The notes beneath the pieces were generated by a model. The model had not been told where the DNA came from and did not search any database. It saw nothing but the letters and a program-made list of their open reading frames with translations. Made by a program: the position numbers and the translations under genes. Shown piece after piece: positions 21,239-64,000 of a stretch of DNA of 64,000 nucleotides (positions are counted from its first letter, which is position 1; each line of letters opens with the position of its first letter). The stretch is from positions 14,269,530-14,333,529 of the forward strand of contig OY482866.1 of the NCBI GenBank assembly GCA_960531495.1, written 5' to 3'. This stretch comes from Zeus faber (taxonomy: Eukaryota; Chordata; Actinopteri; Zeiformes; Zeidae).

Positions 21239-21849
<611 letters not shown>

Positions 21850-31080: not shown

Positions 31081-31209
<129 letters not shown>

Positions 31210-31216
31210 TGTCCAG

Positions 31217-36536: not shown

Positions 36537-37969
36537 TACTACTCACAAAAAGTTTGGGATATTGGGCTTTCAGGTGAAATTTCAGGATGAACCTAAAATG
36601 CACTATAACCTTTACAGGTGAACTTAATTTGATCTTCTCTAAACCTTTGAATGCACATGTCCAACTGTTCAATGTTTCAGTACTTTTTGCACAACTTGCT
36701 GTTCTCTAACAAGGAGCTGAACGGAAAATTCACAACAGGTGTTTGATCCATGAATGGACCAATACATTTCCTGGTTCAATTAGAATTAGTATTTAAACAG
36801 TCCTCTCCATCATGCTGTTCACATTTTGACATCATGAGACCAAGACGACACCTTACAATTGATCAACAGTACCTCACCTTGCGAGGCTTCAATGTTCTTC
36901 CACATGTCCACTTCCCTCTGATGTTCTCAGAGGGAAGAGTCACAGAAAGGCATAGAAGTGGACGTCCTTTGGCCACATCCCACACTGATGAGCGCTTCAT
37001 TGTGAACAGTGCCCTACGGAACCGGATGATGATGCCACTCAACTCGACACATTTAAGGGAGGTGAGAGGCACCCAAGTGTCACGTCAGACCATTCGAAAC
37101 CGTTGACATCAGCGTGGTCTGCGTGCTAGACGACCTGCACCACCAGGCACAGCCATCATCGTCTTGCAGGGGCCAGGGAGCATTTACGCTGGACGAGGGA
37201 CCAGTGGCCTCAGTGCTGTTCTCTGATGAAAGTCGATTCACGTTGAGCAGAAATGATGGCCGCCAACGATGTTGGAGACGTCAAGGAGAGCACTATGCAT
37301 CAGCCACTGTTGTCACCAGACGAGCCTTTGGTGGTGGTGGTGTTACAGTGTGGGCAGGTGTGTCTAGTCAATACAGAACTGCCCTACACTTTGTGAATGG
37401 TACAGTGACAAGCCCATACTACCTGAATAACATCATTAATCCAGTCATTGTGCCCCTGCATGAACAACACAGGCCTCATTTCATCTTCATGGATGACAAT
37501 GCTCCAAGCTCATGGAGGTGGCATCATTAGGGAACGGCTGCTGGAGACTGGGGCACCTCAAATGGAGTGGCCTGCACTTTCTGAGCTGAGTCGCCGTGTA
37601 GAGGCTCCTAACTCTGTACCCCAGAACCTCAATGACCTGAGGACCACCCTTCAAGAAGAGTGGGGGGCCAGGCCTCAGCAGACAATAAGTCGACTTGTGA
37701 GCAGCATGAGACGTTGTTGTCAAGCTGTAATTGATGCTCAAGGGCACATGACAAGTTATTGAGACACTGACATTTTTTGTTGTGGTAAACCCACCACTGT
37801 TGTTGGCTTTTGTTTCAATACATTGTTTGAGATGAGGAAATCACCATTGCATGCTTCTACTTAAATGCCCTACTTTCATGATATAATATCACTGTAGCGT
37901 GAACTTTTTACATTTTCCATAAATTTCACCCGAAAGCCAAATATCCCTAAGTTTTTGTGAATAGTGTAT
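36537..37969 (+). mobile_element. Tc1/mariner transposon, full length but inactive
   Basis: The left terminal repeat (about 36537-36585, 'cacaaaaagtttgggatatt' then 'gggctttcaggtgaaattt') matches the reverse complement of the right end (about 37921-37969) with a few mismatches. The length of about 1.43 kb is typical for Tc1 elements. It lies in the intergenic space 3' of tbc1d14. Confidence 0.88.
36834..37762 (+). pseudogene. Tc1-like transposase, frameshifted and internally deleted
   Basis: The frame opens at 36834 with 'MRPRRHLTIDQQYLTLRGF' and keeps DNA-binding-domain features ('GRPLATS', 'VSRQTIRNR') to 37107. It then shifts frame. 'FSDESRFTL', '[12 protein letters not shown]' and '[10 protein letters not shown]' follow, covering the first two catalytic Asp positions. 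After a further frame change near 37510, 'EWPALSEL' runs straight into 'RRVEAP'; the region that should hold the third catalytic residue is missing. A dead DD34E-type transposase. Confidence 0.85.
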
Positions 37970-45162: not shown

Positions 45163-46175
45163 CTAATATCCAAAAACCCAAATCCTGAAATTCACCCGGT
45201 TGTCATGCCAGATGACAGACCAATTAGTTTCAGCTTGATTAATGAAACCAACCCAAACCCTCCTGGTAGCTGGGCTCCTGACAGATAAAGAATGTACTTT
45301 TTTTTTCGTATGTAGCGTTTTCGTAGCGTATGTTACATGCGGACGCAGGACGCGGTCCATAAGTCTCTGAAAGGGGGCTGGGACACCGAACAACACGAAC
45401 GGAAGTGTACAAAACTGGTACAACCCGAACGGAGTGGGGAACGCCGATTTTTCCTTGGATTCCTGAGACAAGGGAATCTGCCAGTAGCTCTTGGAAAAAA
45501 ACAGTGTCTTAAAAAAACAAGCCGTACCTAACCGGTCGAGAAGTTCATCAACACCGGGCATCGGGTAGACGTCGAACTTTGACACCGCGTTCACCCTTCG
45601 GTAGTCTACGCAGAACCAGATCAACCCATCTAGCTTACCCACCAGCACGATGGGACGACACCAGACACTCGTGGAGTCCTCTATCACGGCCATGTCCAGC
45701 CTCATTCTGTCTGCACGATCTTGCGTTTATGTTCGGGCAGGCGATACGGCTGAGAGTGCACCTTCACCACTGGGGTCGTCTCCCCATGGTGGAGTATGAG
45801 GGACATGAGGCCCTGCAGTGAGGAGAAAACATCAGAGAAGCAAAGCTGAAGTGCAGCCATGTCCGCCCGCTGGGACGGAGAGAGATGGTCACTTAACAGG
45901 GCCGTGGTATGATTGGCTGCTTTTTGAACCTCCGGCCACAACTCATCCGGCTCAATGACCGGCATACCAGAGACAGATGCCCCCTCCCTCAAAGGGTGTT
46001 AAAAGGCAGAAAATCCTGTGGAGGCCTGGGGAACCTCCAGCACTGCAAACAACAGGGGGTCTTGTCCCAATTACGGCTATAGATGTGAACAAACTTTCGA
46101 ACCATGTTTTTCAGCATTTTATTGAAGCGCTCCACCAGACCGTTGGTCTGGAGATGCTAAACCCTGGTCCGAATT
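45163..46175 (-). mobile_element. Ty3/gypsy retrotransposon remnant with integrase before reverse transcriptase
   Basis: Read on the minus strand, 46075-45990 resembles an integrase C-terminal part. A linker follows at 45992-45702 ('PVIEPDELWPEVQKAANHTT', 'ALLSDHLSPSQRADMAAL', 'YRLPEHKRKIVQTE'). Reverse transcriptase comes next at 45700-45300 ('VDYRRVNAVSKFDVYPMPGV', 'DELLDRLG', 'PFGLYQF', 'PAPFQRLMDRVLRPHV'). It is frameshifted and ends before the catalytic YxDD box. The order matches the copy at 47585-49415. Confidence 0.85.
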
Positions 46176-47584
46176 GAGCCGACGCCCAGTAACACGTAAA
46201 GTTCCCCAAGTGTACGTGACATAAAGCCACACTATCTACATGTAAAGCCACACCCATCTACATGTCTCCTCGGTGACCACTCCTCAGGCGAGCCAGCACT
46301 CCAACACCTTGCCTGCTGCACACCTGCATTGATCTGGTTGTGCTTCGCCTCTCCCTCCCAGTGCCAGAATTTAAACTCAGTACATTCACCTCACAATAAG
46401 CCTAGGGTTTGCAGGACAGGTGAGGTGTGAGCTATGTGGGCGGGGATGTGGCGGGCAGCAGCCATCTTGTTCCTGGACGTGCTTCTCGTCGGGGCAGGCG
46501 ATTCTTGTCTCAATTTTAACCCCACTCATATTAGCTTAGAACACATACACTTGGACATAAATCTATCTCCGAACAATACTCCACCAGACCAGGGTCTGTG
46601 GGGCAGGAGGGGTGCGAGTGATTCAGGTTCGACATACTTGGAGGACTCCCACGCCACCCCCACGCCCCGCGATTTTAACTGCAATTGCCAACAGCACACA
46701 TTGAGCGCTGGGGTTTCCGGGGTGGCGGGGCGCTGGTGGTTTGGCGTGGGGGTGTGGCTGGCCAGGGGGCACCTGGGTGGGCACCCTGCCGGCTGGGTTC
46801 AATTCCTGGTGGCTTGCACCTGATCAAACCTGTGTGGACTGTAATCTTTTGATGCTCACATTCTTTTCTCGCATTTATTTTTTCTGGTCCCATAAAAGCC
46901 ACATTAAAGCCTCGTAAATAAGAGTAATTTCCTCTCGTGTGTGCTATCCTCAATAACCTAGTCGTTCACAGATTTCGTCGTCTCATATTACATCAAATTT
47001 ACTGTGAAATTGTCCTTATTTTTTGCAATGTTCAAAGTAAAGATAAAACATAGTTGTATATTTTATACAGTTTATATGGAAATTCTCAACCTGCAAAGTC
47101 AGTCCTTAATGATCATCAAGAACCACATACAACAACTCTGTCCTTTGGGTGACCTATAGAATATTCACACTTTTAAGCACTTTAAATCTCTTGTACATCT
47201 TAAAACTCCCCCTTGTCCCACGCTATGTCAAAGCCGTACGAACACCCTTGTATTTACATTTTGACATTTTGAAAGGAATATTTACCGCCGGTGACAGGGA
47301 AATGACAGTTCTCACTCACCCCTGCAGCAGGTCATGGAGGGATCTTGAGGAAATATCAGGCAGAACCACGAAGGAGGAAAAAAGACGGCCAGAATATTTC
47401 CTTTACCAGTAGGTTGATATACGTATATTCGACCGACAATCAAACTCCGTAGCGAACACACCAAAAAATAGATCACAGGCCGGGCCTGTCACCCAACATA
47501 GGACAGAATTCAGTCTTTTCAATAGAAACATTTATTTTAAACTTTATTTCATATGTTTCTTTAAAGCATAGTAGTTGTAGTGGA
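46176..47584. other. unassigned sequence between two gypsy remnants
   Basis: The open frame at 46434-46823 is not recognised. A 75-bp stretch at about 47080-47155 ('tctcaacctgcaa', 'acaactctgtcct') resembles part of the repeat in the first intron of the left ccdc96. LTR sequence may be here but no clear LTR pair is seen. Confidence 0.4.
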
Positions 47585-49415
47585 TCTGTTGTGGCGTGTC
47601 CTGAGTGCCAGTTAGTCAACCCTCCAGCTACGCCAAGAGCGCCGTCGAGGCCGCTCCCCCTAGTTGAGGTCCCGGATTAAAGAGTCGGTATGGACCTCAT
47701 CGGGCCATTAGACAGCAGCGCCTGCAGGAATCGTTTTGTGTTAGTCCTAGTGGATTATGCAACCCAGTACCCTGAGGCGGTGCGATTGCCCAGTATTACG
47801 GCCAAAAGTGTGGCACAGGCGCTGTTTCATGTCATCTCCTGAACGACGAGGGCACCCTCTTTATGTCACGTACACTTCAGGAACTTTACGAGTTACTGGG
47901 TGTCCGCTCAATTCGGACCAGTGTTTACCATCCCCTGATCAACAGTCTGGTGCAGCGCTTTAATAAAACACTGGAAAAACATGATTTGAAAGTTAATTCA
48001 CGACGATTGCCTTAATTGGGACAAGTGGTTGGACCCCCTGTTGTTTGCGGTGTAAGAGGTTACCCAGGCCTCTACAGGATTTCTCCGTTTGAACTCCTCT
48101 TTGGCAGGGGACCCCTGGGGGTACTATACCTAATTAAAGAAAATTGGGAGGAAGGTCTGAGCACCAGTAAGAACCAAATACAGTATGTAATGGACCTCAG
48201 AGCAAAGTTACATGTGCTGATACGACCATTATCACGGGAGAATTTGCTCAGGGCTCAGGAACGTCAGTGCCTCTTGCTCGCAAAGTGCGAAGGGCCTTTT
48301 ATGGTCACATGGTGGGTTTGCGAAGTCGATTATGAGGTCAAACGGTCTGACAGGCAGGGGGCAACGCAGATTTATCACCTGAGCCTCTTTAAAGAATGGA
48401 GGGAGGCGTCCGTGGCGTCCGGTCACACTGGTCATTGAGTGGGATGAGCTGGCGCCGGATATTCAAAAAGTGGCCGATCATACCGCGGCCCTGTTAAGTG
48501 ACCATCTCTCTCTTGCCGTACTTCTCTGATGTTTTCTCCTCCCTGCCAGGGCTCCCTTCCCTCATACGCTACCATGTGGAGTCGACCCCGGGGGGTGAAG
48601 GTACGCTCTTGGCCGTGTCGTCTGCCTGAACATAAACGCAAGATCATGCAGGCGGAATTAGAGGCCATGATGGACATGGGCGTGAGTCCATTAGTGACAG
48701 GTCTAGTCCCATTGTGCTGATGGGTAAGCCCGATGGGACAGTCCGGTTCTTACATTTTACATTTAGTCATTTAGCAGACGCTTTTATCCAAAGCGACTTA
48801 CAATTGTTCAAACACCGACGGACGCAGCCATCAGGAGCAATTAGGGGTTAAGTGTCTTGCTCAAGGACACTACAGCATGCTAGCAGGAGGAGCCTGGGAT
48901 CGAACCAGCAACCTTTGGATCACTAGACCACCAGCTCTACCTCCTGAGCTACCATCCCCGGTTCTGCGTGGATAACCGAAGGGTGAACGCGGTGTCAAAG
49001 TTCGATGCCTGCTGGATGAACTTCTCGACCGGCTAGGTGCGGCTCGTTTTTTCACGACACTGGGTTTAACCAAGGACTACTGGTAGATTCCCTTGTCTCA
49101 GGGGTCCAAGGAATAATTGGCGTTCTCCACTCTTTTCGGGTTGTTCCACTGTCGCACACTTCCGTTTGGGTTGTTCGGTGCCCCAGCCACCTTTCAGAGA
49201 CTCATGGACTGCGTACTGCGTCCACATGTATCATACGCCGCGGCCTACCTAAACGACGTAATCATTCACAGCGACACCTGCATATCCAGCATTTGGCCGC
49301 AGTGCTTGAGTCCCTGAGGAGGGCGGGGCTCACCGCCAACCCAAAGAAGTGTGCCGTGGGAGGTACGGTATCTGGGGTACCACAGGTGGCCGGACGGCTC
49401 CCCGGCCTAAGTCAA
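47585..49415 (+). mobile_element. Ty3/gypsy retrotransposon remnant, Gmr1-like pol order, interrupted by a SINE
   Basis: The plus strand has an integrase region first (47590-48430): 'CPECQLVNPP' of the zinc-binding end, 'GMDLIGPLDSSACRNRFVLV', 'DYATQYPEAV' and, near the end, 'YHLSLFKEWRE'. A linker follows at about 48437-48700 ('EWDELAPDIQKVADHTAALL', 'LPEHKRKIMQAELEAMMDMG'). Reverse transcriptase comes last (48700-49415: 'VDNRRVNAVSKFD', 'FQRLMDCVLRPHV', 'YLNDVIIHSDT'). Several stops and shifts are present and the catalytic box reads YLND, so it is dead. Confidence 0.87.
48751..48957 (-). mobile_element. tRNA-derived SINE inserted in gypsy reverse transcriptase
   Basis: On the minus strand the head reads 'ggtagctcaggaggtagagc' and later 'ggttcgatccc', a tRNA-like A box and B box of RNA polymerase III promoters. 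The tail contains 'gtcgctttggataaaagcgt', a word found in many fish SINEs. The 8-bp target duplication CCGGTTCT lies on both sides (48743-48750 and 48958-48965). Removing one copy with the SINE restores the retrotransposon frame ('VRFCVD'). Confidence 0.88.
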
Positions 49416-49789
49416 ACGGTGGGGGACCAAGGGTTGTGGTCACCCCGCGGCTGCAGACGGCAGCATGGCTCCCTTTCCCACGGCTGCAAAGCTGCCTCGA
49501 ATCAGCCGAATCAGCGAGCGGCGCTCGTTGTTCCAACTCAGGGCAGGGAGCTTTCTTAATTTTGTTCTGTCTAGCCGAACATCATTCGTCCTGCGCCCAT
49601 ATTCACTTTCAACACTTTAATAAAAACCACGGCCAGAAAGACTCCATCTCCCTCTTTAAACCCCTACCTGTGGTCACAGACTCGCATGGTAGTATATTTA
49701 AATATTACATCCCATTTTCTTTTCAGCTATTTCAAAACGTAAAAATGTCACAATAAATATCAATTTTTTTTACATGATTTTAAAATGGT
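49416..49789. other. unassigned, before the left duplication arm
   Basis: About 370 bp with no recognised gene. It is the unique flank outside the left ccdc96 arm. Confidence 0.45.
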
Positions 49790-49820
49790 TAACTTACATG
49801 TTCTTCCTCCAAAGCAGGTT

Positions 49821-50132
49821 TCAGACTTCCCCCATCTTCTCCAGGTTGCGAACGGCCTGCTCATACTGTAACTTCAGGCTCTCCAGGCCGTCCTCCAGGT
49901 CCTTGCAGGCTTTCACCTTGTCCTCGTAGTCCTGGCGCAGCATGCTGTTGTCCAGGCCACATTGCTGCTCCAGCTCCAGGTTCTCGGCACGCAGGCGACT
50001 CAGGGCCTGCCGGGCCCTGCTCTTCTTGCTCTTTTTCCTGGCTCTTTCTGCCTTCAGCTGGACTAACTCGGCCCCTTTGGCCTGTTTCTCTTGGTGGCAC
50101 CAGTGAAGCCTCTCCTTGACATGGGCCAGGAC
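49821..50132 (-). CDS. ccdc96: ccdc96 left copy, exon 3
   Basis: The exon encodes 'VLAHVKERLHWCHQEKQAKG', 'RARQALSRLRAENLELEQQC' and 'GLDNSMLRQDYEDKV' and ends 'EKMGEV' with TGA. It matches the human CCDC96 C-terminal coiled coil ('VLTHVKEKLHF', 'LRLDNLKLKQKCGL'). The acceptor is 'gctctcctcag'. It differs from the right copy at the last codon (Val for Ala). Confidence 0.9.
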   Translation of the reverse strand, partial: VLAHVKERLHWCHQEKQAKGAELVQLKAERARKKSKKSRARQALSRLRAENLELEQQCGLDNSMLRQDYEDKVKACKDLEDGLESLKLQYEQAVRNLEKMGEV

Positions 50133-50618
50133 CTGAGGAGAGCAGGTCACAGAGAGAACCACTGGAAAATATGTAGAATTATTTATTTAGTTACTTATTT
50201 GCATCCCTGCATATCCAAAGGTTTGGTCAGAATTCTGTAAAAAGAAATAACTGCGTCTGGCATTTTGAGGTTCCGTTTGAGTCTTGGTCCAGGCCTGTGG
50301 TCACTGTGGTCGTTTGAGGGGCAAACAGTTGGGAACTCATGGGGTCCAACTGCACATTTCATGTTTTTTAGTTTTTGTTACTTTCTATTTCTGTTGTATT
50401 TCTGTTGTATAATTGTATTGTTTGTTTGTTTTTTTAAGTTCATTATTTCTATTGTTATTCTTATTGCCATTATTATTGTGACACTGCAATTTCCTATCTA
50501 TCTATCTATCTATCTATCTATCTGTCTATCAGTCTGTCTGTCTGTCTGTCTGTCTGTCTGCCTGCCTGCCTGCCTGTCTGCCTGCCTGCCTGTCGATAAT
50601 AATGATCCCTCCACCCAC
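50133..50618 (-). other. ccdc96: ccdc96 left copy, intron 2 with tetranucleotide repeat
   Basis: A (CTAT)n/(CTGT)n/(CTGC)n tract lies at about 50489-50594. The same kind of repeat is at 61026-61173 in the right copy, so it was present before the duplication. Confidence 0.8.
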
Positions 50619-50837
50619 CTCCACGGTGGTTGCCATCTTCTTGCGTTGCTTGATGATCTGCATCTTTTTATACAACTCCATTTTGCACGTAGCAGAGTGG
50701 TCCCACTTGGGTTTCCCTGCCTCCAACTCGTCCTCCTGACTTTGCTGACGGCTGACGGTCGCCCCTCTCCCTGGAGGGTGACTCAGCCCGGGTATGTCGC
50801 CGTGAAGAGCGACATATTCCTGCCACTCTCTTTCCAC
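50619..50837 (-). CDS. ccdc96: ccdc96 left copy, exon 2
   Basis: The exon is 219 nt, phase 0 on both sides, and encodes 'VEREWQEYVALHGDIPGLSH' to 'QIIKQRKKMATTVE'. Human has 'VEQEWQRFMALKKE' here. It is identical to the right copy except for one residue (Pro for Thr in 'SHPPGRG'). Confidence 0.88.
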
Positions 50838-52094
50838 CTGAGGGTGAAGATGAGGTACAGTCCTGTTTAAATTGACACTTATTACTATTATTATGAAACT
50901 ACAGTGCTATGTCACTGGAACTGGACACTGGAAAAAAAAATCATGAGATTAGATAATCAACTGAGTCAAATTGCTCCAATTTGTAACCCCTGTATTGTTG
51001 GGTGGCTTTCTCAATTTAGACCAAGAAAAACAAAACAAAAAATGAATCCATCAGAAGAAGGCGTACTTTAAAGAGAAGAATGTCCCCGTCTTGGCGCAAA
51101 GGGTTGAAAAAAGAACCTTGGAGTCTTAAATGGAATTCTTACCCTTTTCTCCCTCATTTACTGCCATAACTATCACAGGAAGAGGCCACGTGCCCGAATC
51201 CTGTTCCAGTTTTCCTGGATTTAGTTAACTCTATTTTGTCGATACATACTCGATACTACTTTTTCGTTACTATGTTGATGTTTTTCCATATACATGTTGT
51301 TTGGTTCTTTGTTTATTTGTCTCACCCCTGGTGATTCTCCCCCACTTGGAGTAGTGATTAATTGTTTAAAGACCAACACGTAGTAAAATCATTCTCCAAA
51401 GAGGGGGATTAGTGGTGTTTCTGTGTAACAGAAAACTGTGCTCTTGTCAGTATATGTATGTGACAAATAAACCTCTTGAATCTTGAATCCAACAGGTCGT
51501 CCACAGGACAGAGTTATTGTAGCAGCTCTTGATGATTTAAGAATTAATAAAGAGTTGCATTGCTGGGCATACAACACAGGGCATACAACATGCCCATGCT
51601 TGCCATACAACACAGTATTTATGCCGTTGCATCTAGGAGAGAGTTAGTCTGTAAGTGGAGTTCAACTTCTCAACCTGCAATGCCACTTTTTATTAATTCT
51701 TAAATTATCAAGAACAGCTGCAATAACTCTGTCCTGTGGACGACCTGTTGGATTCACTCGTGGTGATTCTCTCCCTCTTGGAGTAGGAGTTAGTTGTTTA
51801 CAGACCAAAGCATGGTCAGATCGTTCTCCAAAGAGGGGGGTTGGTGGTGGTTCTGGATAACAGAAAAGCTGTGCTCTTGTCCTACAAGTCGTGCACAGGA
51901 CAGAGTTATTGCAGCAGTTCTTGACAATTTAAGAATTAATAAAGAGTTGCATTGCAGGTTGAGAAGTTGAACTCCACTTGCAGACCAACTCTGTCTTAGA
52001 CGCAATGGCATACATACTCTGTGTTGTATGCCAAGCATTTCAATTCTTGGACTGTACTTTATGGATTGCAACTTAAATGTTTCAAATCTATAAA

Positions 52095-52170
<76 letters not shown>

Positions 52171-52187
52171 CGCTTGCTCTGACTCAC
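50838..52187 (-). other. ccdc96: ccdc96 left copy, intron 1
   Basis: The intron is 1350 bp. It carries a (GT)n tract at 52097-52166 next to the donor side, and a block ('aacctgcaatgc', 'aataactctgtcctgtg') present twice at about 51340-51655 and 51660-52005. The right copy has the block once. A retroelement tail word occurs at about 51450-51490. Confidence 0.75.
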
Positions 52188-52817
52188 CTCCTCCAGCTTC
52201 TCTTGGGTCTGCACCACCAGATCCAGTTCACTTGCTCCCTCACTCTTTGGGCTGTTCTGTTGCTTGTTGTACTGTTGGTAAAGCTGTTCCACCGCCGGGT
52301 TCTCCTGCCCCGGCCGGCCGCCCTCCTCCTCCTTCTTGTGGAAGTACCCTGCCAGCTTGCTGTGCAGCTGTGTGTTGTGCCGCAGGAGCACCGAGTGCTC
52401 CTGGAGGAGCCTCACGTACTCCTCGTAGAGCAGTGTGTCTCGTGCACTGGGGGGTCCCTCCGCCTCCCTCTCCGGGCTCGGGGGACCCGGATCCGGCCCG
52501 GGGGCCCCGTCGTCGCCGTCCTGGCCCTCGCGGCCGGCGGGCCCTGGCTGTCCCGTCTCGGGGCTCCCCGCCACGCCCGAGGCCCCGCCGGCCTCCTTGC
52601 CGGCCTCCTCGCCGGCCTCCTCGCCGGCCTCCTCTCCGGCGGGCGGGGGCCCGTCTTCCGGCGGGGCCGGCTCTGCTGCGTCTGGGGCCGCTTCACCCTG
52701 GGTGGTTTCTGGAAGCTCATCTGGCTGCTGCCGTGCGTCCCCCTCCTCAGGCTCCTTTGTTTCTTCACCGTCAGAGGAAGACGCCGACTCCTGGAGGACA
52801 CGTGACCCGTCCTCCAT
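52188..52817 (-). CDS. ccdc96: ccdc96 left copy, exon 1 with start codon
   Basis: The left gene (52817-52188, 50837-50619, 50132-49821) encodes 386 residues. This exon begins 'MEDGSRVLQESASSSDGEET' and has an acidic, Pro/Gly-rich low-complexity N-terminus to about residue 130. It then has 'LLYEEYVRLLQEHSVLLRHN' and 'TQLHSKLAGYFHKKEEEG', the conserved start of the CCDC96 coiled coil. CCDC96 and CCDC113 form a complex on the motile cilium axoneme near radial spoke 3 and the nexin-dynein regulatory complex. The 386-residue length is below human (about 555), and a central coiled-coil block seems absent. The donor is 'gtgagt'. Confidence 0.9.
52586..52640 (-). repeat. ccdc96: 12-bp coding minisatellite in the left ccdc96
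   Basis: The unit, read on the plus strand as GCCGGCCTCCTC, is repeated about four times and encodes Glu-Glu-Ala-Gly repeats. The right copy has fewer units, which accounts for most of its 14 fewer residues. Confidence 0.8.
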
Positions 52818-53098
52818 TGGTGAATTGCGGCGCGAAATGTGTGTAGTGATTCTTATCTTCCACAGTTATGATTATGACTATTTCCTTCTTCCCATAGAGA
52901 ACGTTAGAGATGGGGCGGTGGTTGATATGCTCGTTCACCGTTTGTGAGACACACTTATTCACTTCTTTGTGGGTCTATGTGGCGGATTTGAGCCTGTACC
53001 GTTACATAATCGCCCCAATTGTTCTCACTGATAACTGCACACGTGCGTGCGTGCGTGCGTGCGCGGCTGCGTTGGCCCGCGTCTCGAATTACAATTAC

Positions 53099-53133
53099 CA
53101 CGTGACTGTGACGTCACCGGTCCGCCCGGAAGT
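53099..53133. promoter_or_regulatory. E-box, CRE and ETS motif cluster upstream of the left ccdc96
   Basis: CACGTG (53099-53104), the full cAMP response element TGACGTCA (53109-53116) and CCGGAAGT (53126-53133) lie within 35 bp, about 280-320 bp upstream of the left ccdc96 ATG. This lies outside the duplicated arm, so the right copy lacks it. It is a probable promoter core for the left copy. Confidence 0.5.
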
Positions 53134-53255
53134 GGCTTCGTCGGTTTGAAAGTTTCTGCGCTGTGCTTTTTGACACCAACCACGATTTTCTTTCATAATA
53201 ATAATGATAACGATGAAAAAAAAAAAAATCTCTACCCGTGTATTCGATAGAATCT

Positions 53256-53261
53256 TTTATT
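53256..53261 (-). terminator. tada2b: candidate poly(A) signal of tada2b
   Basis: AATAAA on the minus strand ('ccaataaaag'). It lies only about 125 bp from the promoter-like cluster of the left ccdc96. Confidence 0.45.
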
Positions 53262-55871
53262 GGCGCATAACGACCGCGCATCGTCCGCCTGGGGTTCCCA
53301 AGGTTAAGTCGCCGCTGCAACCCCCGCGGACCACCGGGTGTCGCTGTTGCCCATTTTCAACGCCGCCAAGCTTCGGCTTTTTTTCGGCGCAGAGGCCCGG
53401 GGCGTCCTCCGCCCGGCACGACCCCTCGGCGGGAGCCCGTCCCCGGGGAGCGGGCGATGCGCTTCTGAGATGTGCAGAACAAGGAGTGGGAGGAGGCAGA
53501 GTAGTTGAGGGAAATATTTGAAGGAAGCTGGTGAATATAAGACAGTAGGAAGAGCAAGAGAGGCGCAGAGGTTGATTTGAGTATATGTTATGGGAGGGGG
53601 TTGCCTAATGCTAGGGGGTGCAGAGGATGCTGAGAAGAACAGAAGTGAAATCGTATTGGTTTCCCAGGTCAAGTGCTGTTTTTTTTTTTCCCACAGCACT
53701 GTCGTACACGGGACCGTTGCCTTTCGGTCGTCAATGCTCCGGCGACAAATGAACATGACAGTTTGGAAGTATAAAGCGTCTGCACTTTTAATACAAATAT
53801 GTACTCACGACACCGTGTCCAACCACGGAAATGGCACAGCCAAAATAAAAATAAAATAAGCTCAACATGTTTTGTACAGAAGTTGTTAATACACTCCCGA
53901 TGTGAAAAAATAAAATAAAAATAAACAAAACAGAACAACAGATTGACGGCATTCCATCACCCCGAGGGCTCGAAGAACGGTTCTTTTACCCTCACACTAA
54001 CGCGTCTGTTTTATTTCTTACAAAAAGCTATAAAATGTTTGACATAAAATACTGTACATTTCACAGGGCAGTATTTAAATTTTCTCTTCACTTTATCTTA
54101 CAAAATTATTTACAAATGCTCAGCGCGTGGGGAAGGAAGGAAAGCCCACACAAACGAAGAACATAAGGTTAAAATAATGATGAATTTAAATTGCTCATTT
54201 CTTTCTCCGGAGACAAAGGTTGAAGTTAAACAAACTCCGGCTTCGAAAGGAGGAGACTAAATGGGCAAACAGTCGAGAGGCGCTTGCCAATTTAATCGAC
54301 CCATTTGCATTTTAATGCCGCTTTGGTCACCGCCAGAACAATCTTGCAAAAAAATAAAAAATAAAATAAGACGCGCGCCGGAGGCATGCGTCCTTTCCGA
54401 AACCACTCCGAACGTATTGACATGGGTAAACATGTGGTACGGGAGCTGTTTTCAAATATGCTGATTCATACTTCAGTCACAGGCACAGCGCTTGCGTACG
54501 ACGAGAAAGAAACGATCGCCCTCAGCGACTAATAATGGAAAATTACAATTTTAGTGGGGAGAAAAGATGAAGCGTTCATGAAAGACGAAGGTATTTTTGG
54601 ACAAACTGCGGGAAGGCATGATTTACAAAAGGGCTGGAAAAATGTATAATTAGTTGAGATTCTTTTTCACTTTATCTGGGGTTTTTTGTTTGTTTTTTTT
54701 TGTTGCAGGTTTTCTTCTTTCTCCGATTATTTATATCTCTGACCGTTCTTTAGCTTTCCCTGAACACTTTATTCAACACGTTCTCAATGTTGTTGTTTTG
54801 TAAAAGGCTTTTTTCCCCCCATAATACTGACATTGCCAAGGATATAAAAACATGACTTTTAAGTAAACGCAATACAACAGCAGAGCAGTTATGCTTTTAT
54901 GAAAAAAAATTATAATAATAAAGAAGAAGTGGAAATAACTGCGAGCAGAAGTTGAACGGTAAACCAAAAGGTCCGGTTCAAATTTTGACAGACCTATAAT
55001 CACCCACCAAAGAAAATTAAAAACCTTTTTTTTTTTAGGATATTGCAGTTATTGAACAGTATTGTACCATCACAGGGGACACAAGCGAGGCCTTTGAGTG
55101 TGGCTCCAGGTATCAGGGTGTCGGCCACGCAACATCAGCTTGACAGATGAACAGCAGGCAAAAGCAAAAGCAAGCATTAAAAAGTAGTCATGCACCACAT
55201 CCTACCCAGGGGAGCAAACCATGCATCAAAAAGAGCTCGGACTAAAGTATGTATTAACAGGACCAGCTAAATATGTATCCAAGCTTTAAAGACAAAGGGG
55301 CGGCATATACACTTGGTTAGCCAAAGAAACATTTGGAATTTGTGCTTGAGCCACTGGTACCACCGGTGATCCACTCGGGCGCTCCATTGGAGCCATAGCT
55401 GTTGAATCATACCCCTGCACGGCGACCCGTGTCTCTTTTAAAGGAACTGTTGTGTTCAGACTCCCCCTTGTTCGTTGAGCGGACAGACGACCAACTCGGA
55501 GCTCAACGCCACAGTGTGGTTGCATTCCCGGCAGCGACGCGATCGCCGGGTGAACTGGCTCCGCCGTTTTTGCCCCGTGCCCGCAAAAAGTTTGTTTTGA
55601 GTTAAAAAATAAAGACCCATCTGATTTCCGCCACACTCCCGGTATGAAAATATCTGTTTTTTTCTCCTTTTAAATTTCCAAAAAGTATATTCTTCTGTTT
55701 GCTATGTACATATTCACAAAGCCATTCTTTGAAATGTCAGGCTGTTTTGGTTTTTTTCGTCTCTGGAGCCTGCAGGCCCCCCCCCCCCCGGTTTGCGCGG
55801 CGAGTCATCGCACGTCGTCTCGAGGCGGGAGAAGACAAAACGAAACGACGGGAGCACTTTCCGGCTGTTTG
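53256..55871 (-). other. tada2b: tada2b 3' UTR, probable
   Basis: After the tada2b stop codon the minus strand runs about 2.6 kb to AATAAA at 53261-53256 ('gccaataaaagatt'), with no other gene between. AT-rich blocks such as 'ttgtacag' and 'tgtacatat' words are typical of UTRs. The length is inferred from this signal only. Confidence 0.5.
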
Positions 55872-57125
55872 TTAGGAGGCGTCACGCGCTATCCAGCCGC
55901 TCTCCGTGAGGAAGGTGAGTATGCGCTTTTTCAGCACCTTGTCCAGGTAGCTGGGCAGGCGGCTCTTGGCGGGGACGCCCTGCCTCTTCTGCAGGTGGTC
56001 CTTGATGATGATGGTCTTGACGGTCAGGTAGCGCGCCGGGCTGAGGTTGAGCGAGCTGCACAGCACCTTCTCCCTCTCCGACAGCAGCTCGAAGCCGGTC
56101 AGGTTCTCGATGGCGGCAAATTCCCCGTCCTTGCCTTCCTCCTTGATCCCGCCGCCCGCCCCTCCGCCGGCGGCGGCTCCGCCCCCCAGTCCCATGCCGG
56201 AGCCCAGTCCGCCGCCGCCGCCCCCTCCTCCGCCCCCTCGCTTTGAGGCCACCACGCTCTTGTTTTCCTTGCGCTTCTCCCGCTTGTGGCGCGCCGCCTC
56301 GTATTCGGCCGACTCGTCCAGGCGGGTGACGCCGTTGCGCCGGTAGCGCTGCAGCTCGCGCACCTTGGCCCGCAGCGCGCGCTCCTTGTGCATGTTGTCG
56401 AAGAGCTCCTCGAATTCCCGGTGGGCCATGAACTGGCAGAGCCCCCGCAGCCGCGTGCGCTGCTCCTTCTCCTCCTTGGCGATCTTACGCTTTGGCGTGC
56501 CGGGGGCGGGCCCGCCGGCGCCCGCCGCCATTGCCCCCCCTGCGGACGCTGTGGACGCGCCGCCGCCGGCCATTCCGCCTGCGAGGCCTCCGCCGCCTCC
56601 CCCCCCGGCTCCCGCCCCGCCCGCACCTCCGCCCGTGCCCACCGCCGCCCCAAGCCCGCCGGGCTTCTCCTTCTCCTTGTCCTTTTTATCACGGCCCAGA
56701 AAAGACGGCACCAGGTTGTAGTCGCGGGCAATGTTCTTGCGCCGCTGGCGCTCGCAGAGCTTGCGCACGTACATGTCCACGTGGGCGCGCTTCATCTCGA
56801 TGTCCACGTCCTCGTCGTCGTAATTCACCGAGAGGCCGCTGATCAGCTTCTCCGCGTCCTGGTCGTATTCAATTTCGTAGTCGTCGCGGAGCGGCATATA
56901 GGCCAGCTGCTGCTGCTCGGACAGGGAGATGTCCAGCGGCGGGAGCGGCGTGGTGAGGCTGGGGGACAGCGGGCCGCCGCTCGGACAGGTGTGGTCCGTC
57001 ACCCGGTTGGGGATGCTGTCAGGTATGCAGGCCTTGCCCAGGTTCCCGTGGATGTACATGGTCACGTAGTGCTCCATGACCTCCTGGGGCGTCCGCGACG
57101 CTCCTACGTGGGTGGCCATGTCCTC
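55872..57125 (-). CDS. tada2b: tada2b exon 2: SANT end, central region, SWIRM domain
   Basis: The exon continues from exon 1 as 'EDMATHVGASRTPQEVMEHY' and runs to a stop after 'ESGWIARDAS'. It includes 'LRDDYEIEYDQDAEKLISGL', 'RAHVDMYVRKLCERQRRKNI' and the SWIRM domain ('LNLSPARYLTVKTIIIKDHL', 'YLDKVLKKRI'). With exon 1 the protein is 507 residues, against 420 in human. The difference comes from two Gly/Ala-rich inserts at about residues 245-300 (DNA 56496-56663) and 387-416 (56148-56237). The acceptor is 'ctctccag'. TADA2B is the SAGA-specific ADA2 adaptor that joins GCN5/PCAF to the complex in the nucleus. Confidence 0.96.
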   Translation of the reverse strand, partial: EDMATHVGASRTPQEVMEHYVTMYIHGNLGKACIPDSIPNRVTDHTCPSGGPLSPSLTTPLPPLDISLSEQQQLAYMPLRDDYEIEYDQDAEKLISGLSVNYDDEDVDIEMKRAHVDMYVRKLCERQRRKNIARDYNLVPSFLGRDKKDKEKEKPGGLGAAVGTGGGAGGAGAGGGGGGGLAGGMAGGGASTASAGGAMAAGAGGPAPGTPKRKIAKEEKEQRTRLRGLCQFMAHREFEELFDNMHKERALRAKVRELQRYRRNGVTRLDESAEYEAARHKREKRKENKSVVASKRGGGGGGGGGGLGSGMGLGGGAAAGGGAGGGIKEEGKDGEFAAIENLTGFELLSEREKVLCSSLNLSPARYLTVKTIIIKDHLQKRQGVPAKSRLPSYLDKVLKKRILTFLTESGWIARDAS

Positions 57126-57669
57126 CTGGAGAGCGCGGGGTTAACGCCCCGGAAGCAAAGACAGGCAGAGGCATAATCTGTTATTGCCACCAAATAACAA
57201 GTAGTTGACACATCTTAACAACAGACGCTCCTTTGAGTGGACGGTATTTGATTAAGTTAGGATTAAGTTCAGCTCCTATGTATCTTTGTTTAGTTTCATG
57301 TTAGTTGTTACTGATGTTTTTCTATGTGCCAATAGGGGACGATAAGCATATGTGTAGAAAAACATACTTGTTGAACAAAGCGATTCAGAATACATGTTTT
57401 GGTTAACGGGACACCGTAGAAGAACCACGCGTATTCAACGCATTGAAACGGCCCCGAGCATCATTTTCAATGCATCACTATTCTCGCCGCACTTATACCA
57501 GTTTAACCGCTTGACTGCTGTGAACTCCCGTCTCCACCTCGTGTCTCCTGCAGAACTAAGTCGGCGACGTGCGAGCACCGCCTCGCGTGCACTTTTATTT
57601 AGCGAATAAACAAAAAAGAACCACAGAGGAGGAGGAGGAGGAGGTCAACTCGGCACAAAAGTAGAATAC
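57126..57669 (-). other. tada2b: tada2b intron
   Basis: The intron of about 544 bp has a weak 'gtattc' donor and a 'ctctccag' acceptor. No repeat was recognised. Confidence 0.8.
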
Positions 57670-57939
57670 CCAGTTTCCAAAGCCGTACTGCTCGATGGCA
57701 TCGAGCAGCGACTGCTCTTCCCTGCCGGTCCATCCTCCCTCCGCTTCGGGACCCCACAGAGAGAAGCGCCCACCGTCCACTTGCTGGTAGCCGTGCCACC
57801 GCCGGTGGTTCCCTATTTCGGCGCCCGCCGAGAAGCACTCCGGGCACAGCTCGATGTCCGGGCAGTCGGTGCAGCGGAGCCGGAGGTTGGTAACATCCGC
57901 CAGACAGTTCACGCAGTACTTCTTGCCGAGGTCGGCCAT
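57670..57939 (-). CDS. tada2b: tada2b exon 1: ZZ zinc finger and SANT domain
   Basis: The exon encodes 90 residues from 'MADLGKKYCVNCLADVTNLR'. The ZZ zinc ligands are Cys9, Cys12, Cys23, Cys26, Cys32, Cys35, His45 and His49. The SANT/Myb domain begins near 'GGWTGREEQSLLDAIEQYGF' and crosses the intron. The start is the first ATG of the frame and matches the human N-terminus. The gene lies head-to-head with the right ccdc96 copy. Confidence 0.96.
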
Positions 57940-58124
57940 GTTGCTGGCTGCTGCCGCGGAGGGAGGGCGGGCATGCGTACTAGCGATGCAAGACGCGTGG
58001 ACGAGTCGGGGAGTCCGGAGTGAGCGAGAGAGTCGTCACCCACGAACTGCAAACAATAACTGATAATAAATAAGGATGCATTTGGAATAATTCCTATTGA
58101 ATGTGACTGATTTCCACTTTGCAT

Positions 58125-58172
<48 letters not shown>

Positions 58173-59055
58173 TTCATCATATAAATATACATATCATTAA
58201 TATATATTTTTTTACAGAACTAAATTATTTAGGGGACTCAGCCTTTCTTTGCCAAAATAAATAATTTTGAACAATTGGGCTCAAATATTTTTGGGATCCA
58301 CGTTTTGCTTCTCCCACTTCAATACATCATTATCAACGAATGAAATTCTTCTCGAGAGAATTCCATTCGGGACTCGGGGCCAACCGTGACTCTCGTCCGC
58401 CGCAGGGGCTCCCCTCGCTCCCCTGAGCGTTTACGCAAACGGACTAAAATGAAGGTGGGGTTAGAAAAAATAAATAAATACCGAACGGCTCTTTTTCCAC
58501 CGAGTGACTCGTCGAGAACCGAGTCCTGAAACCCGCATCGAACCTTTCCCTACCGACGCGCGGTGGAGTCGCTGCTGCTCATTAATATTCATGAGCGAAC
58601 GGCGAGCGCCTCTGATTGGTCCGGAGTCCTGGTTTCCACGACAACTGAAAAACAGCAACAGTTTGCTTGACGAACCCTTAGCGCAGGGTTTTTCATCCGC
58701 GGTGTCGCGAAATCCTCGAATTCTGCTTGTCAAAAGAGAATACAACGTTGCAAGATTAAAAAAAAAATAATAATAAAATGATAAGGATGCACTGATTGAT
58801 GTATTCCCAGCCAGGATGCCAGCTCTGTGTCCATCAGTACCAGCTCCAGCTTCATCCTGAAAGTAAGAACTATTATGAGGTCGGAATAATGATGACAGTT
58901 GTACATGTTTGTGAACTTTTACAGTAGGTAGCAGGTAGTGGTGTGCTGTGGGATTACTTCATTGTAAATGTAGAAAAAAGGCACCAGATAGGGCCACCTG
59001 ACATTGCTTGTCAGCTTTTTAAACTTTTGAATCAAAGAGAAAGTCATATTCTAGA
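57940..59055. promoter_or_regulatory. divergent promoter region between tada2b and the right ccdc96
   Basis: The two start codons are about 1.16 kb apart and point away from each other, as in human. GC-rich stretches lie at 57950-58040 and 58360-58640. A reversed CCAAT box ('attggt') lies near 58614-58619. An X-box-like site GTTTCCACGACAAC (58632-58645) has two mismatches to the RFX consensus GTNRCC-N0-3-RGYAAC and could serve the ciliary gene. A pure (AT)n tract is at 58130-58170. Confidence 0.5.
58130..58170. repeat. (AT)n microsatellite
   Basis: About 20 AT units in the tada2b and ccdc96 divergent region. Confidence 0.95.
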
Positions 59056-59096
59056 AGATAAGAATCACTACACACATTTCGCACCACAATTCACAA

Positions 59097-59684
59097 ATGG
59101 AGGACGAGTCACGTGTCCTCCAGGAGTCGGCGTCTTCCTCTGACCGTGAAGAAACAAAGGAGCCTGAGGAGGGGGACGCACGGCAGCAGCCAGATGAGCT
59201 TCCAGAAACCACCCAGGGTGAAGCGGCCGGAGACACGGCAGAGCCGGTCCCGCCGGAAGACGGGCCCCCGCCCGCCGGAGGGGAGGCCGGCGAGGCCTCG
59301 GGCGTGGCGGGGAGCCCCGAGGCGGGACAGCCGGGGCCCGCCGGCCGCGAGGGCCAGGACGGCGACGACGGGGCCCCCGGGCCGGATCCCCCTGGCCCGG
59401 AGAGGGAGGCGGAGGGACCCCCCAGTGCACGAGACACACCGCTCTACGAGGAGTACGTGAGGCTCCTCCAGGAGCACTCGGTGCTCCTGCGGCACAACAC
59501 ACAGCTGCACAGCAAGCTGGCAGGGTACTTCCACAAGAAGGAGGAGGAGGGCGGCCGGCCGGGGCAGGAGAACCCGGCGGTGGAACAGCTTTACCAACAG
59601 TACAACAAGCAACAGAACAGCCCAAAGAGTGAGGGAGCAAGTGAACTGGATCTGGTGGTGCAGACCCAAGAGAAGCTGGAGGAG
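59097..59684 (+). CDS. ccdc96: ccdc96 right copy, exon 1 with start codon
   Basis: The right gene (59097-59684, 60781-60999, 61672-61983) encodes 372 residues. The exon begins 'MEDESRVLQESASSSDREET', has the same acidic N-terminus with a shorter Gly/Ala repeat, and ends with 'VVQTQEKLEE'. From 'YEEYVRLLQEHSVLLRHN' on it equals the left copy. The donor is 'gtgagt'. It is head-to-head with tada2b, as human CCDC96 is with TADA2B, so it probably keeps the ancestral promoter. Confidence 0.91.
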
Positions 59685-59701
59685 GTGAGTCAGAGCAAGC
59701 G

Positions 59702-59741
<40 letters not shown>

Positions 59742-60780
59742 TTTTATATAATTTTTTTTAAATTAATTTACAGATTTGAAAAATTTCAGTGGCAATCCAT
59801 AAAATACAGTCCAAGAATTCAAACGTTTTATTCACCTGTGCTGTCAGCATGCTTGGCAGTGTTTGTATGCCATTGCGTCTAAGACAGAGTTGGTCTGCAA
59901 GTGGAGTTCAACTTCTCAACCTGCAATGCAACTCTTTACTAATTCTTAAATTGTCAAGAACTGCTGCAATAACTCTGTCCTGTGCACGACTTGTAGGACA
60001 AGAGCACAGCTTTTCTGTTATCCAGAACCACCGCCAACCCCCCTCTTTGGAGAACGATCTGACCATGCTTTGGTCTGTAAACGACTAACTCCTACTCCAA
60101 GAGGGAGAGAATCAATACGAGTGAAACAAATAAACATAGAACCAAACAACATGTAAATGAAAAAACACACATGTATCGACAAAACAGAGTTAATGAGGTC
60201 CAGGTAAACTGGAACAGCAATTGGGCACGTGGCCTCTTCCTGTGAAAGCTATGACAGTAAATGAGGGAGGAAAGGGGAAGAATTCCATTTAAGACTCCTT
60301 TTTTTTTTTTTTCCAACCCTGAAATTTTTCTCTCTAAAGTACACCTTCTTCTGGTGGATTGATTTTATTTGTTTTTTTCTTGGTCTCCTGAGGTGGCTGG
60401 AGGATATTTTCTTCATCCACAGGTAAAGGCGGACCCCGCCACCAACAGTGGAAGCTGCATGTAGAGGAGTGCATACAGGATGCCAATACATTGAACGGCT
60501 GTTCTGAAAAAGTGGCAACCTTTTCCAAAAAAACACATCAAATATGGAATTTTCTTCGCAACATGATCTTACAGATCAACACTTTAACATGTACATTTTT
60601 AAATTGAGAAAGCCACCCAACAATACAGGGGTTACAAATTGGAGCAATTTGACTCAGTTGATTATCTAATCTCATGATTTTTTTTTCCAGTGTCCAGTTC
60701 CAGTGACATAGCACTGTAGTTTCATAATAATAGTAATAAGTGTCAATTTAAACAGGACTGTACCTCATCTTCACCCTCAG
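59685..60780 (+). other. ccdc96: ccdc96 right copy, intron 1
   Basis: The intron is 1096 bp. A (CA)n tract is at 59706-59738, and a 200-bp stretch at about 60387-60599 is unique to this copy. The frame that continues past the donor into the intron is not coding. Confidence 0.8.
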
Positions 60781-60999
60781 GTGGAAAGAGAGTGGCAGGA
60801 ATATGTCGCTCTTCACGGCGACATACCCGGGCTGAGTCACCCTACAGGGAGAGGGGCGACCGTCAGCCGTCAGCAAAGTCAGGAGGACGAGTTGGAGGCA
60901 GGGAAACCCAAGTGGGACCACTCTGCTACGTGCAAAATGGAGTTGTATAAAAAGATGCAGATCATCAAGCAACGCAAGAAGATGGCAACCACCGTGGAG
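60781..60999 (+). CDS. ccdc96: ccdc96 right copy, exon 2
   Basis: The exon is 219 nt, phase 0, encoding 'VEREWQEYVALHGDIPGLSH' to 'RKKMATTVE'. The acceptor is 'tcaccctcag' and the donor 'gtgggt'. One residue differs from the left copy. Confidence 0.89.
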
Positions 61000-61671
61000 G
61001 TGGGTGGAGGGATTATTATTATCGACAGGCAGGCAGGCAGACAGGCAGGCAGGCAGGCAGACAGACAGTCAGACAGACAGACAGGCAGGCAGGCAGACAT
61101 AGAGATAGATAGATAGCTAGACAGACAGACAGACAGACAGACATAGATAGATAGATAGATAGATAGATAGATGATAGACAGACGGACAGACAGGAAATTG
61201 CAGTGTCGTAATAATAATGGTAATAAGAATAAAAATAGAAATAAAGAAAATAGCAATATGCAGTAAACCTCAGAATCAACGAGAAGATAAAGAATTTTGA
61301 AGTATACAAGGAACTGAAAAAACAATAAAACAATAATAACCAATCAAAATAAAAATAAAAAAAGATTGACAATAAATATAAACCAAAAAAGCAATACAAT
61401 TAATTTGCACCTTAAAAAAATACAACAGAAATAGAAAGTAACATGAAATGTGCAGTTGGACCCCATGAGTTCCCAACTGTTTGCCCCTCAAACGACCACA
61501 GTGACCACAGGCCTGGACCAAGCCTCAAACGGAACCTCAAAATGCCAGACGCAGTTATTTCTTTTTACAGAATTCTGACCAAACCTTTGGATATGCAGGG
61601 ATGCAAATAAGTAACTAAATAAATAATTCTACATATTTCCAGTGGTTCTCTCTGTGACCTGCTCTCCTCAG
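61000..61671 (+). other. ccdc96: ccdc96 right copy, intron 2 with tetranucleotide repeat
   Basis: A (CAGG)n/(CAGA)n/(TAGA)n tract lies at about 61026-61173. The intron is 186 bp longer than in the left copy, mostly from the repeat and an A-rich stretch. Confidence 0.85.
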
Positions 61672-61983
61672 GTCCTGGCCCATGTCAAGGAGAGGCTTCA
61701 CTGGTGCCACCAAGAGAAACAGGCCAAAGGGGCCGAGTTAGTCCAGCTGAAGGCAGAAAGAGCCAGGAAAAAGAGCAAGAAGAGCAGGGCCCGGCAGGCC
61801 CTGAGTCGCCTGCGTGCCGAGAACCTGGAGCTGGAGCAGCAATGTGGCCTGGACAACAGCATGCTGCGCCAGGACTACGAGGACAAGGTGAAAGCCTGCA
61901 AGGACCTGGAGGACGGCCTGGAGAGCCTGAAGTTACAGTACGAGCAGGCCGTTCGCAACCTGGAGAAGATGGGGGAAGCCTGA
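61672..61983 (+). CDS. ccdc96: ccdc96 right copy, exon 3 and stop
   Basis: The exon is 312 nt including TGA. It encodes the C-terminal coiled coil ending 'NLEKMGEA'. The acceptor is 'gctctcctcag'. Confidence 0.9.
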   Translation, partial: VLAHVKERLHWCHQEKQAKGAELVQLKAERARKKSKKSRARQALSRLRAENLELEQQCGLDNSMLRQDYEDKVKACKDLEDGLESLKLQYEQAVRNLEKMGEA

Positions 61984-62020
61984 AACCTGCTTTGGAGGAA
62001 GAACGTGTGAGTTAAAACCA

Positions 62021-64000
62021 AAATAATCATAATAACAACAGGGTTCTTACCACATCCTTGAGGTGAGTGAAGTGATTGAAAATGGTGTCTTTTGTGCTGA
62101 AGTCCATGAAAATGTTGACTTTTTTCAATGAAGTCACCATCATCGTTGGCGAAGGATATTCATTTGAATTCTCAACTAATTCCTAAAAAATTCCCACTGG
62201 TGGATGTTGAAATGATGTATTTGAGAGTGAGCTGTACAAGTAAAAAATGGGAAAATGACATTTTCTTTTTTCTAACGTTTATCAGCTTTGAAATTTTTGT
62301 AGTATTTTACGCTGTACTTTGGTGTAATATCTCTGCTTTAATGAAACAATTGAAATAACACTGAATTATGTCCCATCTGAGGACAAGCTACAAAAACAAT
62401 ACAAAAAAGAAATGAAATCCTGTTGGGATCGAGATGGAGGATTCCTCAGTTAGTTTGATCCCCCGCTTTCATTTGTGATTAAAACACATTTTATTTACTA
62501 TGTCAACTGCCTCTGAGTGGCCTGTTCATTATTAATCTTGCCAGGAATGAATGAATGTGCATAATGAATATGCTGGACACTTACCATGTTCCATGAATAA
62601 CGATGACTTAAAACACTAACAATGAATAAAAGACATTTGATAGTGAATAATATTCACTGACAAAAAATATTTTTACTTTGAAGCACGTGATTTATTTACT
62701 TAGGTTCAAGCCGGTTCCAATTTAAAAAATAATAAAGTGAGGTCCCCTCACGTAGTAACTGTCAACCCCAAACTTGGACGATTTATTTTATTTTTTTTTT
62801 CACCACAGTGAATCAGGCATCAGCGCATCAAACACGCGGGATTGAATGTCACTTCCAGTTTGCTCTCGTCGTTTCAGGCGTTAAAAAGACGCCGCCGCCG
62901 CACACTGAGCCAGGCGGAACGCGCTCCCCCCCATTCGAAGATTCACAGGCGTCAGTGGGCGCGCCGTCACGCCACTCCGCGGCGGTTTCGGTCCCGCCTG
63001 CACCGTAGCATTTTAAATACACGACCCAATATTTAAGCGGCAAACCCTCAAGGAAAGACCTCAAATAACATTCGGATAAATGTCCAGCAGATGCCCCCCA
63101 GAGTGTTATTCGGGCTTATTTTTGTTTTTTAATGAGGTTAGGATGCATGACTGTGATGACCCCGTCCCGGAAGCTGCGAGGATGATTTCCTTTCCGTCGA
63201 TTTTATTAACAGGAAACAGACGTTCATTTCAAAGTTTTTTGTTTTTTTTATTGAGGACTCTCTGACAGTGTTCTGAGGACGTCTTTCTTCAGAGGGGTGA
63301 GAGCGGACGGCGCCTCCGGTCACGCAACATCCGACAAGTGTCAAACCCGCCGGCGCTGGGAAGTTACTCAACCGAGGGGAGGCTCTACGAGGTCGGCGCC
63401 GGGACGCACCGCCATGGCCTCGTAATAGCCCAGCCTCGGTTTGGAGCAGCATCCCGGTAGCCTTCCCTAAAATTCTCTCTCTCTGTCGCCTGAAGCGTTA
63501 AAAATAAACAACGTACGGGCGATAATTTCAGTTATACCGATCTGGATTTGAACAAAAAAAAAATAAAATAATAATAATAATAATCTGGAATGCTCATACA
63601 AGATCAGTGTTGTTGGCTACAATACAAAAGCACATTCAAAACATTTGACTTTCCAGTAAAGACGCACGTAGCTCTCCGTCGTCGGCGTGATGACCGTTAT
63701 CGGGTGGTACCGTGAAAAACGAGCCACATCAACAAAAACACTGGAATTTCACTCACTTCATAGGACTGGCGACTGAATTCTGTGTACTAGGCCAGATTAA
63801 AGTGTTAAACATCTGTTAAAAGAGTCATATCGCATACGGATCACGGTGGAGTCCCGTCTCTTCCTGGCGCTGGTTTTTTGGGGGGGGGGGCAGAGGTCAA
63901 GGTTTTGGGAAAGGTGGGGCTGGTGCAGGCGCCGCCGCCGACAACCCCCCCCCCCCCCAGGATCCGTCGCCCCGGGGTCCGACGAGACCGGGCGGCCTCG
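62021..64000. other. right end of the window, no supported gene
   Basis: Past the arm the sequence is AT-rich to about 62800, then GC-rich at 62840-63010 and 63150-63420, with G/C tracts near 63880 and 63945-63958. The human neighbour after TADA2B is GRPEL1, but no GRPEL1 sequence was recognised. Confidence 0.5.
62625..62630 (+). terminator. ccdc96: candidate poly(A) signal of the right ccdc96
   Basis: AATAAA ('tgaataaaag') about 640 bp after the stop codon; it lies outside the duplicated arm, so the left copy must use another signal. Confidence 0.4.

Follow-up and report, generated by a model that had tools for sequence, protein, structure and literature searches.

In a 64,000-nucleotide stretch of the Zeus faber genome (assembly GCA_960531495.1, contig OY482866.1, positions 14,269,530 to 14,333,529; the window in what follows), we found the gene ccdc96 as two open copies in opposite orientation, one on either side of tada2b. 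The product of this gene, CCDC96 (FAP184 in Chlamydomonas), is a partner of CCDC113 in the axoneme of the motile cilium. We consider it reasonably probable that the arrangement arose when the entire ccdc96 gene was duplicated in inverted orientation and tada2b was inverted locally along with it, and that the copies were later partly homogenised by gene conversion. No report of a duplicated ccdc96 in fish was found among the papers listed, as judged from titles and the opening lines of abstracts.

Two ccdc96 genes in an inverted repeat

Comparison of the window with itself by blastn, in which the matches in reverse orientation define the arms, reveals an inverted repeat of two arms (Table 1) separated by a spacer of 6,193 bp (52861-59053). 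The arms are covered by four strong inverted matches, 49789-50379/62015-61424 (98.1% identity, E 0.0), 50497-51018/61121-60600 (97.7%, E 0.0), 51753-52596/60125-59282 (91.3%, E 0.0) and 52619-52860/59295-59054 (95.5%, E 1.2e-107), with a weaker fifth in intron 1 (51018-51448/60386-59997, 77.4%, E 6e-56). Their homology starts ~43 bp before the ATG, beyond which the copies have no upstream sequence in common, and ends ~32 bp after the stop. The left copy, ccdc96-L, has an open frame of 386 codons on the minus strand and the right copy, ccdc96-R, one of 372 codons on the plus strand; each comprises three exons, and all four introns are of the GT-AG type.

The genome of 803 Mb in 153 contigs was then searched with the L protein as the query (E up to 10). 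Of the resulting 15 matches, six are the exons of ccdc96-L and ccdc96-R, and the next best has an E-value of 0.23. A genome search with PF13870, the CCDC113/CCDC96 coiled-coil domain, exceeded the cut-off at two of the nine matches listed, these being the two exons 3. Hence, a third or full-length ccdc96 was not found elsewhere in the genome, with the limit that the search is exon-wise and a copy split by introns or strongly diverged could score low.

These results bear out most of what an earlier note on this DNA had claimed, namely two intact copies of 386 and 372 residues in opposite orientation, arms of about 3 kb with a 6.2 kb spacer, three exons and both introns common to the copies, coiled-coil exons a couple of residues apart and large indels in the introns (seen in both introns of the arm alignment). 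The duplication with two open copies is upheld by the self-comparison, the gene models and the genome-wide protein search alike. That note also correctly placed tada2b in the spacer, but did not mention the minus-strand orientation of this gene relative to its neighbours, or that the coiled-coil domain is incomplete.

Table 1. Coordinates of the features discussed, as positions in the window
Feature	Positions	Strand	Remarks
Left arm of inverted repeat	49789..52860	-	3.07 kb; blastn self-match
Right arm of inverted repeat	59054..62015	+	2.96 kb; blastn self-match
ccdc96-L exon 1	52188..52817	-	ATG at 52817; gene model, protein search
ccdc96-L exon 2	50619..50837	-	gene model, protein search
ccdc96-L exon 3	49821..50132	-	with TGA stop; gene model, protein search
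ccdc96-R exon 1	59097..59684	+	gene model, protein search
ccdc96-R exon 2	60781..60999	+	gene model, protein search
ccdc96-R exon 3	61672..61983	+	with TGA stop; gene model, protein search
Tract identical to L	59446..59738	+	0/293; end of exon 1, start of intron 1; last part CA repeat
Near-identical tract	60598..61013	+	0/181 end of intron 1, 1/219 exon 2
Near-identical tract	61440..61983	+	1/232 end of intron 2, 2/312 exon 3
Rearranged MITE-like repeat	51135..52038		L intron 1; ~160-bp inverted ends; many genome copies
Candidate promoter of ccdc96-L	53000..53500		CpG-rich, upstream of ccdc96-L; CRE (53109) and ETS site (53126)
tada2b long 3' open frame	55872..57140	-	TADA2A-like_3rd, Ada2b C-terminal domain
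tada2b 5' coding region	57709..57939	-	ADA2 ZZ finger; ATG at 57939

Patchy divergence of the arms and probable gene conversion

The base-by-base alignment of the arms that had been proposed, with exon, intron and synonymous divergence compared, was carried out and shows that divergence is patchy. We counted substitutions per aligned base, block by block in the order of ccdc96-R, such that the blocks hold 70 of the 72 differences and two fall between blocks. The 5' leader differs at 3/43 bases and the first part of exon 1 at 13/349 (10 of the 13 being nonsynonymous), after which the rest of exon 1 and the start of intron 1 are identical (0/293). Intron 1 continues with 5/51 differences after its CA repeat, in a 51-bp block of non-repeat sequence, followed by 6/267 and 18/159 in the first and second parts of a repeat element, 7/93 in the stretch thereafter and 0/181 at its end. 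Exon 2 (1/219) and the start of intron 2 (1/67) precede a repeat-rich part of that intron (11/169), its end (1/232), exon 3 (2/312) and the sequence after the stop (2/26). Divergence reaches 7.5-9.8% in some blocks of the introns.

Three tracts, each some 300-550 bp long and running from exon into intron, stand out against this background: silent differences, intron included, amount to 2/545 inside them versus 24/334 elsewhere, the blocks for this contrast having been picked after the data were seen. When the test is confined to intron sequence free of masked repeats (650 columns with 19 differences), p is 0.009 for the longest identical run, 0.044 for the largest count in 60 columns and 0.00035 for the variance. 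Over the 879 silent columns of introns, fourfold sites and flanks (26 differences), the longest identical run has a p of 0.005 and the fit improves by 7.6 log units under a two-rate model, versus no more than 3.6 in 300 shuffles. The 3' flank was left out of all five sensitivity sets, which yielded p values for the run of 0.010, 0.049, 0.019, 0.141 and 0.001 and, in the same order, for the variance of 0.001, 0.002, 0.0004, 0.016 and 0.0002.

The arms thereby display tracts of high identity that extend across exon and intron and are bounded by diverged silent sites, as is characteristic of gene conversion. Since selection on the exons does not explain identical intron beside diverged intron, conversion between the arms is likely to be a better reading of these sequences than such selection alone. 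Further, with silent divergence of ~7% outside the three tracts and 0.4% inside them, the most similar tracts would understate the age of the duplication.

An alternative, which we regard as possible but doubtful, is a recent inverted duplication without conversion, in which the arms would be young and the divergent blocks of the introns would consist of fast-evolving sequence rich in repeats. Several of those blocks do adjoin CA, GACA/GATA or poly-T repeats, and leaving out two such blocks weakens the run test, with p rising to 0.14. However, the leader, the first part of exon 1 and the non-repeat intron block, with 3/43, 13/349 and 5/51 differences, contrast with intron stretches of 0/181 and 1/232, and the variance test still returns a p of 0.016 in the strictest set.

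The repeat element that fills the middle of intron 1 resembles a miniature inverted-repeat transposable element (MITE), and its L copy is rearranged. The listed genome copies of the family are 86-90% alike over one part and 81-84% over another. Over the first part the arms differ at only 6/267 bases, whereas, of the 40 copies scored out of 5,343 candidates, the closest one elsewhere reaches 90%; thus, a single insertion is common to the arms, either predating the duplication or transferred between them by conversion. Over the second part, identity between R and L is down to 76%, which does not exceed that of the other listed copies of the family, so that this block may not be strictly homologous between the arms. 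The element was left out of the intron-column and 879-column tests and of four of the five sensitivity sets.

The encoded proteins

The two proteins differ at two residues in total over exons 2 and 3, and at nine residues in exon 1, where copy-specific indels of 12 and 2 residues are also found in the low-complexity N-terminal part; from residue 130 onward only two residues differ. Synonymous divergence (dS) is 0.006 in the C-terminal part (one change) and 0.035 in the N-terminal part (three changes), and nonsynonymous divergence (dN) in the latter, at 0.040 (10 changes), is close to the silent rate. With only these two residues and an N-terminal part diverging at about the silent rate, nothing in the sequences points to a new protein function for either copy, and the specialisation in dosage or tissue that had been suggested finds no support in them.

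Affiliation with CCDC96 is indicated by the best PDB sequence matches of the L protein, the CCDC96 chains 9fqr_Ks and 8j07_i1 (at L residues 268-374), by PF13870 (32.1 bits versus a cut-off of 31.6) and by the neighbours tbc1d14, tada2b and grpel1, which are kept around ccdc96 here as in cattle and mouse. The domain scan of proteins was given L only; R is identical to it over the coiled-coil part, save for the two residues beyond position 130, and both exons 3 are above the cut-off in the genome search. The differences from known CCDC96 lie in the presence of two copies, in their length (386 and 372 residues, the matched chains having 556 and 555) and in the domain itself, which is matched only from position 63 to 176 of the 177 in the model, leaving positions 1-62 unmatched and the domain short of full length. 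The alignments to the CCDC96 chains cross both exon junctions, the first of them where the match is not significant by itself, so that exon 2 seems to be where the domain falls short and would be internally shortened. A missed exon that would complete the domain was sought by tblastn of a core peptide in 49000-63000 and not found, the best match being exon 3 itself (E 0.003).

The passages on Tetrahymena Ccdc96 in PMC7987202 describe a C-terminal fragment, A370-Y794, as sufficient for reaching cilia and the N-terminal part as poorly conserved. This fragment is much longer than the part kept in the fish protein. It is plausible that the fish protein functions in its shortened form, and both copies probably still encode a CCDC96-type ciliary protein. 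We think it unlikely, on a par with a duplication free of conversion, that one copy is a decaying pseudogene that looks intact through being young or recently converted. The N-terminal part without visible constraint and the absence in L of any upstream sequence in common with R beyond ~43 bp before the ATG would suit such decay; however, both frames are open, all splice sites are intact, a promoter-like stretch lies upstream of L, and the poor conservation of the Tetrahymena N-terminal part, as described in those passages (PMC7987202), offers a precedent for the lack of constraint.

Gene order and a proposed origin

The order of genes here is tbc1d14(+), ccdc96-L(-), tada2b(-), ccdc96-R(+), grpel1(-). 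The first is recognised on the plus strand in the left part of the window by its match to the TBC1D14 structure PDB 2qq8 (E 2.7e-43), and the last by its last coding exon on the minus strand just right of the window (E 1.8e-60). The spacer gene, on the minus strand, encodes an ADA2 ZZ finger, a TADA2-like third domain and an Ada2b C-terminal domain, and we assign it to tada2b from the model of the last of these and the neighbourhood. It lies head to head with ccdc96-R, at 1,158 bp from ATG to ATG. In mammals we take the order to be TBC1D14(+), CCDC96(-), TADA2B(+), GRPEL1(-), with CCDC96 and TADA2B head to head. Relative to this mammalian order, ccdc96-L would occupy the ancestral slot and strand beside tbc1d14, and tada2b, on the minus strand while tbc1d14 is on the plus, would be flipped. 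A cattle table gives CCDC96, TADA2B, GRPEL1, SORCS2 and PSAPL1 in this sequence for one region, in line with the mammalian order but with coordinate order not stated (PMC5070821), and a mouse table gives these genes together with Tbc1d14 in another sequence (PMC5679752). No account of how these genes are arranged in fish was found among the papers listed.

Inverted copies are present at both ends of the segment bearing tada2b, which we examined as a mark of an inversion with a duplicated breakpoint. We advance the following scenario. The ancestor would have had the mammalian order. By one route, staggered breaks on either side of ccdc96 and in the tada2b-grpel1 interval would have been repaired by fill-in of the staggered ends, so that tada2b came out flipped with a copy of ccdc96 to its left and to its right. 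By the other, an inverted copy of ccdc96 would have come first, with recombination between the arms then flipping the spacer. The observed layout fits a single staggered-break inversion and also an inverted duplication plus arm recombination exactly. Either way each copy would retain one ancestral flank, R the 1.16-kb head-to-head interval with tada2b and L the side of tbc1d14. One flip could explain the duplicate gene, the lost upstream region and the retained one.

Several points weigh against this account. The two routes leave the same layout and are not told apart by it. The ancestral order and strands are presumed from those of mammals, and the comparison is limited to this one fish genome. 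As to gene conversion, which the earlier note had also raised, the patchy silent divergence favours it, but some divergent blocks adjoin microsatellites or poly-T, with their higher mutation and misalignment, and in the weakest set, from which both blocks beside poly-T or AT-rich sequence were dropped, the p values are 0.14 for the run and 0.016 for the variance. The synonymous contrast between the C- and N-terminal parts amounts to four changes in all. Finally, a third of the coiled-coil model is absent from the protein, so that the function of ccdc96 is not certain.

A bolder version, which we hold to be improbable, is that the arms are an active recombination pair, with mutual conversion and an occasional flip of the tada2b cassette in the population. 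If true, either ccdc96 copy could share the tada2b promoter, and the pair would act as a small, reversible genetic switch for the promoter that a ciliary gene uses. That the assembly merely holds a second haplotype placed inverted is very improbable, in agreement with the doubts of the earlier note about a misjoined allele: three inverted blocks, at 95-98% identity, come close to what two alleles would show, but neither the self-comparison nor the arm alignment reveals a match between the flanks of one arm and those of the other, the common part stops at the gene itself where an allele would bring its neighbours, the 64-kb window contains no N, and the intron blocks at 7.5-9.8% difference are part of the same arms. 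A genome search with the right flank (62010-62800) brought up 12 short matches (43-105 bp) at other sites and no long one.

Upstream sequences

The proposed duplication and flip of tada2b would leave L in need of a new promoter. The interval between ccdc96-R and tada2b is CpG-rich, with an observed/expected CpG ratio of 1.44 at 58500-58749. On the side of L, the candidate for a new promoter is the CpG-rich stretch at 53.0-53.5 kb. There, between tada2b and ccdc96-L, two motifs that we take to be a cyclic-AMP response element (CRE) and an ETS core lie 9 bp apart (53109-53133), 292-316 bp before the ATG of L. None of 100 shuffled versions of the window contained the pair, its pattern having been chosen after the site had been seen; single motifs are not rare in the window (CRE 3 versus 0.87 expected, ETS core 1 versus 1.64). 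RFX (X-box) sites were also sought near either start and gave no strict match; a loose pattern occurs eight times in 52.7-64 kb on both strands, versus a rough estimate of four made without shuffles, and these sites were set aside.

Other features of the window

Between tbc1d14 and ccdc96-L, fragments resembling a Ty3/gypsy reverse transcriptase were noted by eye at 45163-49300, and two inverted pairs occur there, 45326-45617 with 49238-48960 (83%) and 45990-46226 with 48103-47859 (82%). Long simple repeats that are nearly identical to one another, and that we read as runs of CA/TG, lie in the tbc1d14 region at 3002-3137, 16235-16359, 21714-21836 and 31080-31214. Elsewhere, a degenerate tandem repeat with an offset of ~37 bp is found at 27211-27610, and an open frame on the plus strand at 37066-37530 resembles, by eye, a fragment of a Tc1/mariner transposase.

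Comparison with known systems

The case allows testing of how copies with different regulation are born, and of how far conversion hides their age. Its weight would be broader if the tada2b cassette flips in the population or the copies differ in expression, and moderate to low otherwise. Staggered-break inversions of Drosophila, with inverted duplications at their ends, have a comparable layout. In Atlantic herring, inversions are flanked by inverted duplications that are 85-99% alike and hold one gene or none, and the study of them discusses both mechanisms, rating arm recombination as the commoner in vertebrates (PMC11499932). The inverted copies at both ends of the segment are common to those inversions and ours; however, the segment here is ~6 kb with one gene, as against megabases in herring, and is not known to be polymorphic. 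Long inverted repeats of Caenorhabditis keep divergent or convergent pairs of homologous genes alike (PMC1803023), but there complete intergenic sequences belong to the repeat, whereas here the gene alone does and an unrelated gene stands between. Among vertebrate tandemly arrayed genes, 72-94% of pairs in arrays are parallel (PMC2547482); the ccdc96 pair is like a two-member array, differing in its divergent orientation and in the one unrelated gene between its members. Every element of the ccdc96 pair has a precedent, and the duplication, though real, is of an ordinary kind.

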